The notes under the pieces: generated by a model | Seen by the model: the letters and a program-made list of their open reading frames with translations, nothing else | Databases searched by the model: none | What the model was told of the DNA's origin: nothing | Shown: piece after piece, positions 2,342 to 31,900 of the stretch | Layout: each line of letters opens with the position of its first letter | How positions within the stretch are numbered: position 1 is the first letter of the stretch | IMG/VR virus record: IMGVR_UViG_3300042914_000508 | Span: 1-32,142 of that record | DNA: 32,142 bases | Strand: one strand, 5' to 3' | DNA from: a virus | Program-made: the position numbers and the translations under genes

Positions 2342-2839
2342 ATGCAAGAACAATGGAAGCCAGTAGTCGGCTATGAAGGATTATATGAAGTATCAAATTT
2401 TGGTAGAGTTAAAAGTTTACCAAGATACAAAACAATAAAATCAGAAAAAATTTTAAAGCAAAATTTAAAATCTGAATATTTTTATGTTAGACTTTATAAC
2501 AAATCTTTATATCAAGATATAAAAGTACATCAATTAGTTTCAATGTCTTTTTTAGGATATAAAAGAAATGGATTGCAAGATGTAGTTGTAGATCATATTA
2601 ATGAAAATAAACTTGATAATAATTTAAACAATTTGCAATTAACAACTCAAAGGTATAATTCATCTAAATCTAAAATTAGTAATACAGGAATTACAGGTGT
2701 TTATAAAACTAAATACAATAAATTTAGAGCAAATATAAAAGTGGGTTCTAAACAAATTCATTTAGGATATTTTAAAACAAAAGAAGAAGCACATTTAGCT
2801 TATCAAAACAAATTAAAAGAAATACAAAATGGAAGATAA
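2342..2839 (+). CDS. NUMOD4/HNH homing endonuclease with AP2-like DNA-binding domain
   Basis: This 165-residue protein has three segments. NUMOD4 (residues 3-25) reads W....GYEGLYEVSNFGRVKSL. The HNH nuclease has VHQLV at 62-66, VDHIN at 83-87 and DNNLNNLQLTT to 102. The C-terminal AP2-like domain, about 115-160, reads GITGVYK....KFRANI....K..HLGYFKTKEEAHLAY. These are free-standing homing nucleases that nick DNA to spread their own gene. It sits between the ERF and exonuclease genes, where it splits a usual functional pair, and overlaps the latter by 11 bases. Confidence 0.88.
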   Translation: MQEQWKPVVGYEGLYEVSNFGRVKSLPRYKTIKSEKILKQNLKSEYFYVRLYNKSLYQDIKVHQLVSMSFLGYKRNGLQDVVVDHINENKLDNNLNNLQLTTQRYNSSKSKISNTGITGVYKTKYNKFRANIKVGSKQIHLGYFKTKEEAHLAYQNKLKEIQNGR

Positions 2840-11008: not shown

Positions 11009-11440
11009 ATGGGAAGACCTAATAAGATACACAGCCCTGAACATCTATGGGAGTTATTCCAAGCGTATAAGAAAAACACGAAAGAGAATCCTTTTATTGT
11101 AAAAGACTATGTAGGTAAAGATGCCGAAATGGTATATAGAGAGAAAGAAAGACCTCTGACAATGGAAGGGTTGAATAATTATGTTTTTGACATGGGTATT
11201 ATTCATGGATTAGATAACTATTTTGCTAACTCGAGAGGAAGATACAAGAAATTTTCAAGCATCTGTCGCGCAATTAAAGAACAAATACGACAAGATCAAA
11301 TCGAAGGTGGCATGGCAGGAATGTATAATCCATCTATCACGCAGCGTCTAAACAACCTTGTAGAAAAGACACAGACTACAATAGTTGAACAACCGCTTTT
11401 TAATTTGGAATCAGAAGAGGAGGAAGAAAACGAAGATTAA
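11009..11440 (+). CDS. terS: Terminase small subunit (GP3-like)
   Basis: This 143-residue protein follows the plan of the DNA-packaging protein GP3-like family of Bacteroidota phages. SPEHLWELFQAYKKNTKENP comes at the start, RPLTMEGLNNYVFDMGI in the middle as a helix-turn-helix, and then IKEQIRQDQIEGGMAGMYNPSITQRLNN. A very acidic tail (ESEEEEENED) ends it. It binds the packaging site and feeds DNA to the large subunit, whose gene begins three bases after this stop. Confidence 0.85.
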   Translation: MGRPNKIHSPEHLWELFQAYKKNTKENPFIVKDYVGKDAEMVYREKERPLTMEGLNNYVFDMGIIHGLDNYFANSRGRYKKFSSICRAIKEQIRQDQIEGGMAGMYNPSITQRLNNLVEKTQTTIVEQPLFNLESEEEEENED

Positions 11441-11442
11441 AT

Positions 11443-12645
11443 ATGTTTAAAGTAACTACATCAATTAGGAAGATTCTCGCCCTGAAGAATCGTATTAAGA
11501 TTATACAGGGTGGAACTTCCGCTCTTTAGTCCCCTCTGAAAATAGTAGGAGGGGACGACCATGCAGGTAAGACGTTCGGTATTCTACCGATACTCATAGA
11601 CAAAGCAGCAAGGCATTCAGGACTTGAGATAAGTGTAGTAGCTGAAACTATCCCACACTTACGTAGGGGTGCTTTAAAAGACTTTCTAAAGATAATGAAG
11701 TGGACAGGTAGATACAATGATGAACACTTTAATAAATCACTTTTAAGATACGAATTTGGAAATGCAAGTATTATTGAATTCTTTTCGGCTGATGATAGTA
11801 GTAAGCTACGTGGTGCTCGTAGGGATATTTTATATATTAATGAGTGTAACAATGTCACTTTTGAATCGTATAACGAACTTGCTATTCGTACTAAAAAAGA
11901 AATTTACTTAGACTTTAACCCAGCTAATGAGTTTTGGGTGCACACGGAATTGAAAGACGAACCTGATTCAGATTTCATAATTCTGACCTACAAGGATAAC
12001 GAAGCCTTAGATCAATCCATAATAGACCAAATAGAAAAGAACAAGGAAAAGGCGAAGACCTCAGAGTATTGGCGTAATTGGTGGAATGTTTATGGATTAG
12101 GATTGGTAGGAAGCCTTGAAGGAGTAGTTTTTAACAACTGGAAGTTAATAGATACCATACCTACCGAAGCAAGGTTGATAGGAATAGGCTTAGACTTTGG
12201 TTATAGTGTTGACCCTACGGCAATAGTAGCTATATATACATACAACGGTTTACGAATTGTAAAGGAATTAGTTTACAGAAATGGAATGTTAAACACAGAT
12301 ATAGCAAGAGAATTGCCTAAAAATGTTGCTGTATATGCTGATAGTGCAGAGCCTAAAAGTATTGAAGAAATAAGAAGACAAGGAATAACGATAAAAGGCG
12401 TTACAAAAGGTAAGGATTCTATCAACTACGGGATAGACGTAATGCAAAGACAAGAGTATTTAGTAACGTCAGACAGTACTAACCTCATCAAAGAGCTTCG
12501 TTCGTATTGTTGGGACACTGATAAGACAGGAGTGAGATTAAATAAACCAGCGGGAGGGAACGATCACATTATAGATGCACTACGTTACCACGAGATGGAA
12601 ACTTTAGGATTAAATTCAAGTTATGGGACATACGCCATCCGTTGA
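11443..12645 (+). CDS. terL: Terminase large subunit, gene interrupted in the Walker A motif
   Basis: The frame from ATG 11443 reads 27 codons to GGTSA, then hits TAG at 11527. It resumes in the same frame with GKTFGILPILIDKA. Removing 42 bases (11524-11565 or equivalent) gives one 386-residue protein with a complete Walker A, GGTSAGKT (residues 23-30). Other motifs in that product are Walker B DILYINE (114-120), the coupling segment YLDFNPAN (141-148), and nuclease residues in LDFGYS (Asp237), YADSAEP (Asp286) and NDHIIDALRY (Asp360, Asp364). The enzyme cuts concatemers and pumps DNA into the prohead, so it is essential. Bypassing, splicing, mutation or an assembly fault could explain the break. 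The gene ends overlapping the next by 23 bases. Confidence 0.85.
11524..11562 (+). other. Putative translational bypass element or micro-insertion with hairpin
   Basis: These 39 bases separate GCT (11521-11523) from GCA (11563-11565), both Ala codons. They contain in-frame TAG at 11527-11529. A perfect 8-bp hairpin pairs 11529-11536 with 11549-11556 (12-base loop), and its stem takes in the last base of the stop codon. AGGAGG lies at 11547-11552, before the candidate landing codon. These parts parallel the T4 gene 60 coding gap: takeoff codon, stop, hairpin, SD-like signal, synonymous landing codon. Unlike gene 60, one codon (CTT) lies between takeoff and stop, and the takeoff and landing codons are synonymous, not identical. 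Confidence 0.5.
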
Positions 12646-12952: not shown

Positions 12953-13639
12953 ATGAAGTTAGAATTATTAATACCAACAAGTTTAGATGAGATACCATTA
13001 AAAGCCTATCAAGAGTTCAGAAAGACGGTTGAAGGTTCTAATGATGAAATATTCATATCTGAAAAGATGGTATCACTATTCTGTGGTATAGAGCTAAAAG
13101 ATATAGTAAGAATAAAAGCCACAGACCTATCAGATTTGGTAGAGCATTTCAATACATTATTTTCTCAGAAAAGTAAATTTAAACAACGCTTTAAGATTAA
13201 TGATGTTGAGTTTGGATTTGTTCCCAATTTGGAAACAATATCATGGGGCGAGTATATAGATGCAGAAAAGTATTTATCAAGCTGGGATAATATGCACAAA
13301 GCTATGGCTGTGCTTTACAGACCTATCATAAAGACGAAAGGTGATAAGTACGAGATCATGGAATATGAAGGTACTGCTGATTTTGCAGAGCTAATGAAAC
13401 TAACACCTGTAAGTATAGCACTTGGCGCATCGGTTTTTTTTTGGACTTTAGGACTCGAATTGTTGGAGGCTTTAGCGCATTATTTGGGGAAGGAGACGAA
13501 GAAGATGAGCAAAACGACTGGAGCGAACAGTCACAATTTGGAAAGCAGTGGGGATGGTATCAATCAATCTATGCAGCAGCTAAAGGAAACATTCTTGAAT
13601 TTGATAGAATCACAAAACAACCACTTATTAAAATGTTAA
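12953..13639 (+). CDS. Tail assembly chaperone, short (frame-0) form
   Basis: This 228-residue protein resembles the tail chaperones of Bacteroidota siphophages. It has MKLELLIPTSLDEIPLKAYQEF at the start (read as two parts), an F.P.LE.ISWGEYID.EKY segment near residues 90-108, and YRPII.....YEI..Y at about 122-140. After the slippery T-run the frame-0 tail reads WTLGLELLEALAHYLGKETKK and on to residue 228. Chaperones of this type coat the tape measure protein during tail assembly. It is the shorter of two probable products; see the frameshifted form. Confidence 0.7.
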   Translation: MKLELLIPTSLDEIPLKAYQEFRKTVEGSNDEIFISEKMVSLFCGIELKDIVRIKATDLSDLVEHFNTLFSQKSKFKQRFKINDVEFGFVPNLETISWGEYIDAEKYLSSWDNMHKAMAVLYRPIIKTKGDKYEIMEYEGTADFAELMKLTPVSIALGASVFFWTLGLELLEALAHYLGKETKKMSKTTGANSHNLESSGDGINQSMQQLKETFLNLIESQNNHLLKC

Positions 13640-13713
13640 CTTTTCTCACATTTGAGAAGCAAAAGACGGAAATAGAAATTAGACAGATTAAAAAACAACA
13701 GCAGAAATGGTAG
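12953..13713 (+). CDS. Tail assembly chaperone, -1 frameshift (GT-like) form
   Basis: A -1 slip on the T-run at 13434-13442 (frame-0 codons GTT TTT TTT) joins residues 1-163 to a 90-residue extension starting at base 13441. The result is a 253-residue product. The extension (GEGDEEDEQNDWSEQ, then WGWYQSIYAAAKGNI and KMLTFLTFEKQKTEIE) has the acidic then WY..(L/I)Y.LA.GDI look of the chaperone C-terminus in related phages. It has no good start codon of its own. The gene is directly upstream of tail genes, as in the lambda G/GT arrangement. A homopolymer error is the alternative. Confidence 0.65.
13434..13442 (+). promoter_or_regulatory. Slippery T9 site for -1 ribosomal frameshifting
   Basis: Nine T residues read as G TTT TTT T in frame 0 allow tandem tRNA-Phe slippage by one base. 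The -1 frame is open from here to TAG at 13711. No stable downstream hairpin was obvious by eye. Confidence 0.55.
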
Positions 13714-31370: not shown

Positions 31371-31610
31371 ATGAAAACAGCATTACAATGGTTTATTCAA
31401 CAAATAAAATATATAAATATAATTGTACCAAAAGAAAATTCAGATAAACTTTTATCAATGATGCATCAAGCCAAAGAAATGGAGAAAAACAATATATGTG
31501 ATGCTTGGGATAATGGATATGATAAAGGAACAAGAGATAGGATTGAAAAAATATCAAATCCAGTTGGCAATGCAGAACAATACTACAACGAAACCTTTAA
31601 ATCAGAGTAA
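31371..31610 (+). CDS. Small EQYYN-type protein, right copy
   Basis: 79 residues. MKTALQWFIQQI opens it; the half from QAKEMEK to AEQYYNETFKSE is nearly identical to the protein at 728, while the N-terminal half differs. The identical half lies in the 225-bp repeat. Function unknown. Confidence 0.65.
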   Translation: MKTALQWFIQQIKYINIIVPKENSDKLLSMMHQAKEMEKNNICDAWDNGYDKGTRDRIEKISNPVGNAEQYYNETFKSE

Positions 31611-31691
31611 GATGAAAGAAGATAAATTTTTAATAAAATCATTGTTGTTAATTATAATCTCAACAATATTAGGAGGGTTAGTTTATTCGTT
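31467..31691 (+). repeat. 225-bp direct repeat, right copy
   Basis: Match to 809-1033 with about four differences by eye. The repeat spans the 3' half of one gene and most of the membrane-peptide gene. Confidence 0.9.
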
Positions 31692-31710
31692 ATTGTTTAA
31701 ATATTCATAA
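31612..31710 (+). CDS. 32-residue single-span membrane peptide, right copy
   Basis: The same peptide as at 954 except the last two residues (FKYS instead of FKNY). A short charged head and one hydrophobic helix. The repeat ends within its last codons and the frame still closes, suggesting it is translated. Confidence 0.55.
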   Translation: MKEDKFLIKSLLLIIISTILGGLVYSLLFKYS

Positions 31711-31711
31711 A

Positions 31712-31900
31712 ATGAAAGATAAACATGCGATAATTTTAATACCTCCAATAGGAATTATGGTTAAGGAGGTCGAGATGTATATATATATGAAGACCGGACG
31801 AAAGGTAAATATAGTTTTTAACAATCCATTCCACATGCATGAACATATTGAAATGCTGAGGGATGCATATAAAATTATTAAAACAGATGAATTCAGGTGA
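31712..31900 (+). CDS. Small protein paralogous to the one at 12623, 62 aa
   Basis: After a hydrophobic start (IILIPPIGIM) it reads VKEVEMYIYMKTGRKVNIVF and NNPFHMHEHIEMLRDAYKII, aligning with the 58-residue protein that overlaps the end of the terminase gene. Function unknown. Overlaps the next gene by 14 bases. Confidence 0.6.
   Translation: MKDKHAIILIPPIGIMVKEVEMYIYMKTGRKVNIVFNNPFHMHEHIEMLRDAYKIIKTDEFR

Follow-up and report, generated by a model that had tools for sequence, protein, structure and literature searches.

The window, by which we mean the whole stretch of DNA analysed, is a viral record of 32,142 bases with the gene order terminase, portal and tail. A block of 42 nt interrupts the Walker A motif encoded by its gene for the terminase large subunit (TerL; Table 1). 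Frame 0 from position 11443 reads KIIQGGTSA, followed by CTT and TAG, and GKTFGILPILI appears again from 11566, where the second part begins, encoding the rest of the ATPase and the RNase H-like nuclease domain. Within the block, 5 nt precede a hairpin of 8 bp (a ninth closing pair, U.G, is possible) with a loop of 12 nt, and 6 nt and the triplet GCA follow. A first-pass annotation of the sequence had described the open frame, its stop and resumption point, the hairpin and the AGGAGG motif, and re-reading the sequence confirmed every position given. It had also noted that deleting 42 bases yields GGTSAGKT and that synonymous alanine codons (GCT and GCA) sit at the block edges; both observations are correct, the restored motif being that of the closest block-free homologue (L002, TerL approximately 96% identical), which is ungapped at this site. 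What it missed were a strong 5' stem-loop in the preceding coding sequence and the out-of-frame block lengths found in the family. A scan of the window identified the TerL block as its sole site combining a hairpin, matched codons and a frame break. Elsewhere in the window, a 255-bp direct repeat (809-1063 and 31467-31721, 95% identical) with duplicated small ORFs lies near the ends of the record, and a run of nine to ten T at 13433-13445 (GGTTTTTTTTTGG), a possible slippage or frameshift site, is found where ORF 12953-13639 overlaps ORF 13441-13713, which is in another frame.

Table 1. Features of the terminase region of the window, numbered from its first base
Feature	Position	Strand	Basis or remark
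Terminase small subunit, directly 5' of TerL	11009..11440	+	phrog_606, Pfam GP3_package
TerL (terminase large subunit), whole	11443-12645	+	start ATG 11443, stop at 12645
TerL part 1, MFKVTTSIRKILALKNRIKIIQGGTSA, last codon is the putative take-off codon	11443..11523	+	aligns with block-free TerLs
5' stem-loop within the TerL coding sequence, end adjoining the take-off codon	11468..11520	+	MFE -23.6, z -5.79 against synonymous recodings
Pairs of the 5' stem-loop	outer GGAAG 11468-11472 / CTTCC 11516-11520; inner 11478-11484 / 11506-11512	+	
Putative take-off codon GCT (Ala)	11521..11523	+	sequence; comparison across carrier blocks
42-nt gap including the landing triplet	11524..11565	+	missing in close homologues; recurrent in carriers
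In-frame TAG, second codon past take-off	11527..11529	+	not conserved in all relatives
Block hairpin, 8 perfect bp, GTCCCCTC 11529-11536 / GAGGGGAC 11549-11556	11529..11556	+	100% paired in 15 distinct relatives
AGGAGG in the block	11547-11552	+	sequence
Putative landing triplet GCA	11563..11565	+	first two bases are those of take-off GCT
TerL part 2, GKTFGILPILI... to stop, 359 aa	11566..12645	+	Pfam Terminase_3, Terminase_3C

Searching with the protein gave 80 close TerL relatives, most of which have an ungapped GGTSAGKT or GGTSASKT; a block of the window type is present in L003, L004, L005, L023, L024 and L025, and a diverged one, with the stop at another place, in L047 and L048. Of 80 relatives sampled irrespective of the block, 14 carry it. 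The homologue alignment that the first-pass annotation had proposed thus has a clear outcome, the block being absent in most relatives, present in some, and variable in sequence and length. Pattern scans extended this set to 147 loci among the matches listed (some contigs counted twice), with 41 distinct blocks at the TerL site; the motif was in part a precondition of these scans, and carriers that are related do not count as independent. The first of them, for any insertion of 26-56 nt at the GGTSA/GKT motif, yielded at least the listed matches and further types, and a second scan added more. In a bacterial genome collection the same pattern gave 45 matches, one being a true TerL carrier (L215, a Chitinophagales MAG contig) and the rest chance; as only this one was a TerL, the pattern rarely matches by chance. 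Scanning for the element only, we recovered TerL genes of two families plus three chance sites: the same block is present in a second TerL family with the Walker A YGGAA|GGGKS (L373, L374 and L379, take-off GCC, landing GCA) and in a TerL with GGTSA|SKT (L370). An exact match search, which is too strict for this purpose, found no copy of the window block in other contigs. Among isolated phages, blastn with the window TerL gave no match, short blastn with the block gave chance matches only, and tblastn revealed no split P-loop among the best 25-60 of approximately 1000 relatives (joined TerLs) or, for the second TerL family, among the best 28; no carrier isolate was found, the carriers being metagenomic. 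When 2.1 Mb were scanned generically for blocks of this kind in other genes, many chance matches came up, mostly in unrelated GC-rich contigs, and nothing convincing outside TerL was present among the matches listed.

This recurrence bears on the simplest explanations, namely a null mutation, a micro-insertion carried by part of the population or an assembly chimera. Such events are what a stop codon within an essential gene usually indicates, and the first-pass annotation had kept the latter two as alternatives while judging a null mutation less likely. Recurrence in dozens of independent contigs and samples rules out the chimera and the micro-insertion and, together with compensatory changes in the stem and a conserved downstream ORF, refutes this group of explanations, leaving it practically no probability. 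A partial duplication of the P-loop, also suggested earlier, does not hold either, as block sequences differ and the blocks of other carriers are not copies of the P-loop. The TerL block is far beyond chance and is no artefact.

Net block lengths of 32, 35, 36, 37, 39, 40, 41, 42, 43 and 44 nt were found, covering all three frame classes. The block is thus not translated in frame, and some means of skipping it is required. The hairpin family of the window itself (loop GAA..AGTA) occurs at 42, 43 and 44 nt (L187, L159, L370 and L373 having 43 or 44 nt), and the multiple of three remarked upon in the first-pass annotation, true for the 42 nt of the window, is therefore incidental in the family. 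Joining over the block restores a full-length TerL in all block types. The protein is under purifying selection on both sides of the block, with dN/dS values for the downstream ORF of 0.042 (32-nt type), 0.034 (35), 0.113 (36), 0.025 (40) and 0.043 (43); behind the out-of-frame 32-, 35-, 40- and 43-nt blocks this ORF is still intact. Differences per site within the block amount to 0 in the 32- and 36-nt types and 0.006 in the 35-nt type, compared to a gene dS of 0.49-0.74, and this near-invariance indicates that the block is selected and not decaying. Translation of the block by stop readthrough or by a reassigned TAG would be conceivable for the window, where the block is in frame and would leave GDDHAGKT as an alternative Walker A. 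Since the downstream ORF is conserved behind out-of-frame blocks, readthrough is no general answer: blocks of 32, 35, 37, 40, 41, 43 and 44 nt refute it for the family, the element family of the window is itself found at 43 and 44 nt, and the type and position of the stop change between relatives, so that we attribute to this explanation a negligible probability. An intein was rejected as well, as the inserts carry stops and their lengths are not divisible by three.

The stop itself is a variable feature. Among the 41 distinct blocks it is the second codon in 21, the first in 3, a later one in 16 and absent in one (L159); the first-pass description of a stop following the take-off site thus stands for the in-frame TAG of the window, with the amendment that among carriers it is usually the second and not the first codon. 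That most blocks have an in-frame stop close to their beginning could also mean a split gene, with the N-terminal piece terminating there and the remainder being made as a second polypeptide after re-initiation. This is very improbable, because GGTSA before and GKT directly after the block are conserved as a single Walker A, in the window no ATG occurs in the downstream ORF before 11695, which is past the P-loop, several blocks have no early stop, and the matched landing triplet would be left unexplained.

Two RNA structures accompany the block. In 15 distinct 42-nt blocks all 120 of 120 pair cells of the block hairpin are standard, and three of its eight pairs show double-sided changes (GC/UA/AU; CG/UA; AU/CG/GC/UG), giving a covariation of 0.458 (slid controls at most 0.081; 0 of 500 shuffles). 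The hairpin is maintained through compensatory changes. Other block types have GCAA or GTAA tetraloops, and GNRA-type loops are present in many. The second structure, the 5' stem-loop, ends in the carriers at the take-off codon or one codon earlier. Measured against synonymous recodings, the mean folding z-score of this region is -2.67 for 34 carriers and -0.14 for 53 block-free relatives (p 1e-11), and the score is 0.12 in the block-free neighbour L002 as opposed to the value for the window in Table 1. When placed on the tree, presence of the stem-loop agrees with carrier state in 9 of 12 independent pairs and opposes it in none (p 0.004), and within the window subfamily 10 of 14 carriers and 0 of 39 non-carriers retain the complete set of 11 core pairs. 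Shuffling indicated no more than moderate covariation in it, since changes in most pairs are confined to one side, and the contrast between carriers and non-carriers is the stronger test. The N-terminal peptide of carriers is the same as in block-free relatives, therefore the 5' stem-loop reflects selection on the mRNA. Downstream of the block, where a 3' stem-loop would lie at the beginning of the second ORF, folding did not differ between carriers and block-free relatives.

The codons flanking the block are matched. Blocks of the Ala type are preceded by GCN, and their last triplet is GCA, GCT, GCG, GTA, GTT or, once, ATA; this landing triplet is GCN in 24 of 33 such blocks, GTN in 8 (in approximately five lineages) and ATA in one (L215). 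Blocks of the Gly type come after GGN and have GGA as their last triplet (GGC in L271); GGN was paired with GGA in 8 of 8 cases, a count to be read with the GGN landing imposed by the search pattern in the two main scans, two unconditioned scans providing the fair Gly test, and with the landing left unconstrained the sole addition was GGT...GGC. A GTN landing instead of GCN might be accommodated by a G.U pair at the middle of the anticodon of tRNA-Ala (UGC), and GTN and ATA landings would need relaxed pairing. The spacing from the take-off codon to the stem is 5-6 nt in 39 of the 41 distinct blocks; between the stem and the landing triplet there are 1-8 nt.

These observations can be confronted with removal of the block from the mRNA as a minimal intron, with a nuclease of the host or the phage excising the hairpin and the ends being ligated. 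Such a process would give the same protein, agrees with block lengths that are not multiples of three, and would fit the conservation of the hairpin and the flanking coding structure as RNA. We know of no splicing of such hairpins from bacterial mRNA. Moreover, 32-44 nt is far below the size of known self-splicing introns, no Rfam family matched in the window, and neither the matching of the triplet at wobble level nor GTN as its main exception is predicted by splicing; we consider it improbable, although less so than the other alternatives. A self-splicing or catalogued intron was rejected on the absence of an Rfam match in the window and the 42-nt length. Translational bypassing is favoured because it predicts both re-pairing at a matched triplet and a structured upstream mRNA, neither of which is needed for splicing or excision.

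Taken over all frame classes, the purifying selection, the codon match and the conserved RNA structures, ribosomal bypassing, as put forward in the first-pass annotation, is the best-supported reading, and the TerL block is very probably a programmed bypassing element. We infer from comparative sequence evidence the hop itself, the order of its steps and the passage, whether looped-out or sliding. Ribosomes would translate TerL codons 1-27 up to the take-off codon, GCT here and GGN elsewhere, where they would meet a stable hairpin 5-6 nt ahead and, usually, a stop as the second next codon. The peptidyl-tRNA would then release the take-off codon and the ribosome would get past the hairpin, while the upstream mRNA, on emerging, may refold into the 5' stem-loop and so favour forward movement, in line with T4 gene 60, in which the ribosome is driven to slide forward by mRNA that folds behind it (PMC11194080). 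Subsequently, the same tRNA would re-pair with the landing triplet 3' of the hairpin, being GCA, GGA in the Gly type or sometimes GUN (through G.U, for tRNA-Ala), and decoding would restart at GGT AAG ACG to give an uninterrupted Walker A, GGTSAGKT. Points that count against bypassing are that carriers have no obvious special nascent peptide, whereas T4 bypassing needs one, that the L159 block is without any stop, and that the GTN and ATA landings call for relaxed pairing.

Described precedents for bypassing are T4 gene 60, the byps of Magnusiomyces, a claim for Prevotella and a candidate in Streptomyces phage Hau3 (PMC5009743), and a review from 2020 states that bypassing was observed only in T4 (PMC7576135). 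Nothing on the TerL block family was found in the open-licence literature. The gap in T4 gene 60 comprises 50 nt in the coding sequence of a topoisomerase subunit, so that gene and element sequence both differ from those described here. Alike are the non-coding gap with two gene halves encoding one conserved protein, the matching take-off and landing codons (not in every Ala-type block) and a 5' stem-loop upstream of the take-off site, which is stronger here by the same measure. Conversely, in T4 the take-off codon GGA lies inside the stem and the stop adjoins it, while in the TerL blocks the stem begins 5-6 nt downstream of the take-off codon and the stop is neither adjacent nor obligatory. 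Unlike in T4 gene 60, we found no 3' stem-loop signal, the landing triplet lies 1-8 nt past the hairpin, and the tRNA would be that of Ala or Gly. The upstream peptide, shared by carriers and block-free relatives, shows no evident sign of a dedicated nascent-peptide signal. T4 gene 60 is a single case, the TerL blocks a large, diverse and patchy family. The parallel with T4 drawn in the first-pass annotation accordingly survives for the bypassing-like operation and the matched codons and breaks down for the stop codon, which is dispensable. By its sequence features, the TerL block would be a variant of programmed bypassing that resembles T4 gene 60 in operation and is distinct from the T4 element, because it departs from the latter in the adjacent stop and the take-off codon within the stem and shows no 3' stem-loop.

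The mitochondria of Magnusiomyces capitatus reportedly harbour 81 mobile-like bypassing elements, the byps. These are likewise inserts of tens of nucleotides that are bypassed, with codons matched (sometimes imperfectly) and a patchy, mobile-like distribution; they occur in mitochondria and in many genes per genome, as opposed to one conserved TerL site in phages with ordinary bacterial hosts. In Streptomyces phage Hau3 bypassing was also proposed in a phage terminase gene (PMC5009743), and this candidate is set apart by its description, which links it to a UUA codon and to decoding by the host and includes no family of hairpin elements. Inteins of mycobacteriophage TerL share the insertion at the Walker A P-loop and the homing endonucleases (PMC5050341), but are translated and removed as protein, whereas the TerL block has 32-44 nt, includes stop codons and often has a length that breaks the frame.

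On the TerL tree, 12 or more changes of carrier state fall on branches with good support, and the block family is patchily distributed and probably mobile. A patchy distribution would also be expected if the block were removed at the DNA level, so that TerL would be expressed by those particles whose genome has lost it. A scan of the collection for the excised junction of the window block type returned only distant block-free relatives and no carrier copy without its block; close block-free relatives differ at many synonymous sites and are thus separate lineages, and the block, the 5' stem-loop and the matched codons are under selection, which together make such removal extremely improbable. 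A homing endonuclease gene was found upstream of TerL in 11 of 32 carrier groups compared to 1 of 49 block-free groups, not adjacent in the latter; in a looser search, an adjacent HNH-like stretch was also seen in three block-free loci (L039, L301 and L310). In L024 the endonuclease is free-standing (HNH_3+NUMOD4+NUMOD1) and its stop overlaps the TerL start. The window itself contains a NUMOD4/HNH_3 homing-endonuclease gene at 2342-2839 (+), which does not adjoin TerL; related HNH genes abut TerL in many carriers. In L249 and L215, the ORF directly 5' of TerL, at the HNH position of other carriers, encodes a small protein that is GIY-YIG-like by eye, with no Pfam match. In the L092 group (G37), HNH similarity without an intact ORF lies approximately 650 nt before the Walker A site while the block is still intact, suggesting a decaying endonuclease gene. 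In L132 and L051 a DNA methyltransferase-like ORF (DPPYG) adjoins TerL on its 5' side.

The block might spread or persist by breaking the recognition site of a homing endonuclease that targets TerL and is often encoded next door. Such a nuclease-immunity origin appears plausible by analogy, because of the HNH neighbours, the proximity of T4 gene 60 to the HNH gene mobA, with the proposal that its gap protects from a homing nuclease (PMC5009743), and the position of the block at the Walker A motif, the commonest intein site of mycobacteriophage TerL1 (PMC5050341). The full picture would be that of a widespread, mobile family of bypassing elements of bacterial viruses at the TerL Walker A, spreading with free-standing homing endonucleases, in which the block spoils the nuclease target and the ribosome erases the block by means of mRNA structure and matched Ala or Gly codons with no special nascent peptide; to this picture as a whole we give even chances.

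As long as efficient bypassing was almost confined to T4, its rules could not be learned by comparison. With dozens of natural variants in take-off codons, gap lengths, loops and landing triplets, these rules would become directly testable. Our results further suggest that gene callers miss or mis-split TerL, a key marker gene of phages, and that the ribosomes of ordinary bacteria may tolerate hopping as a routine way of hiding inserts.
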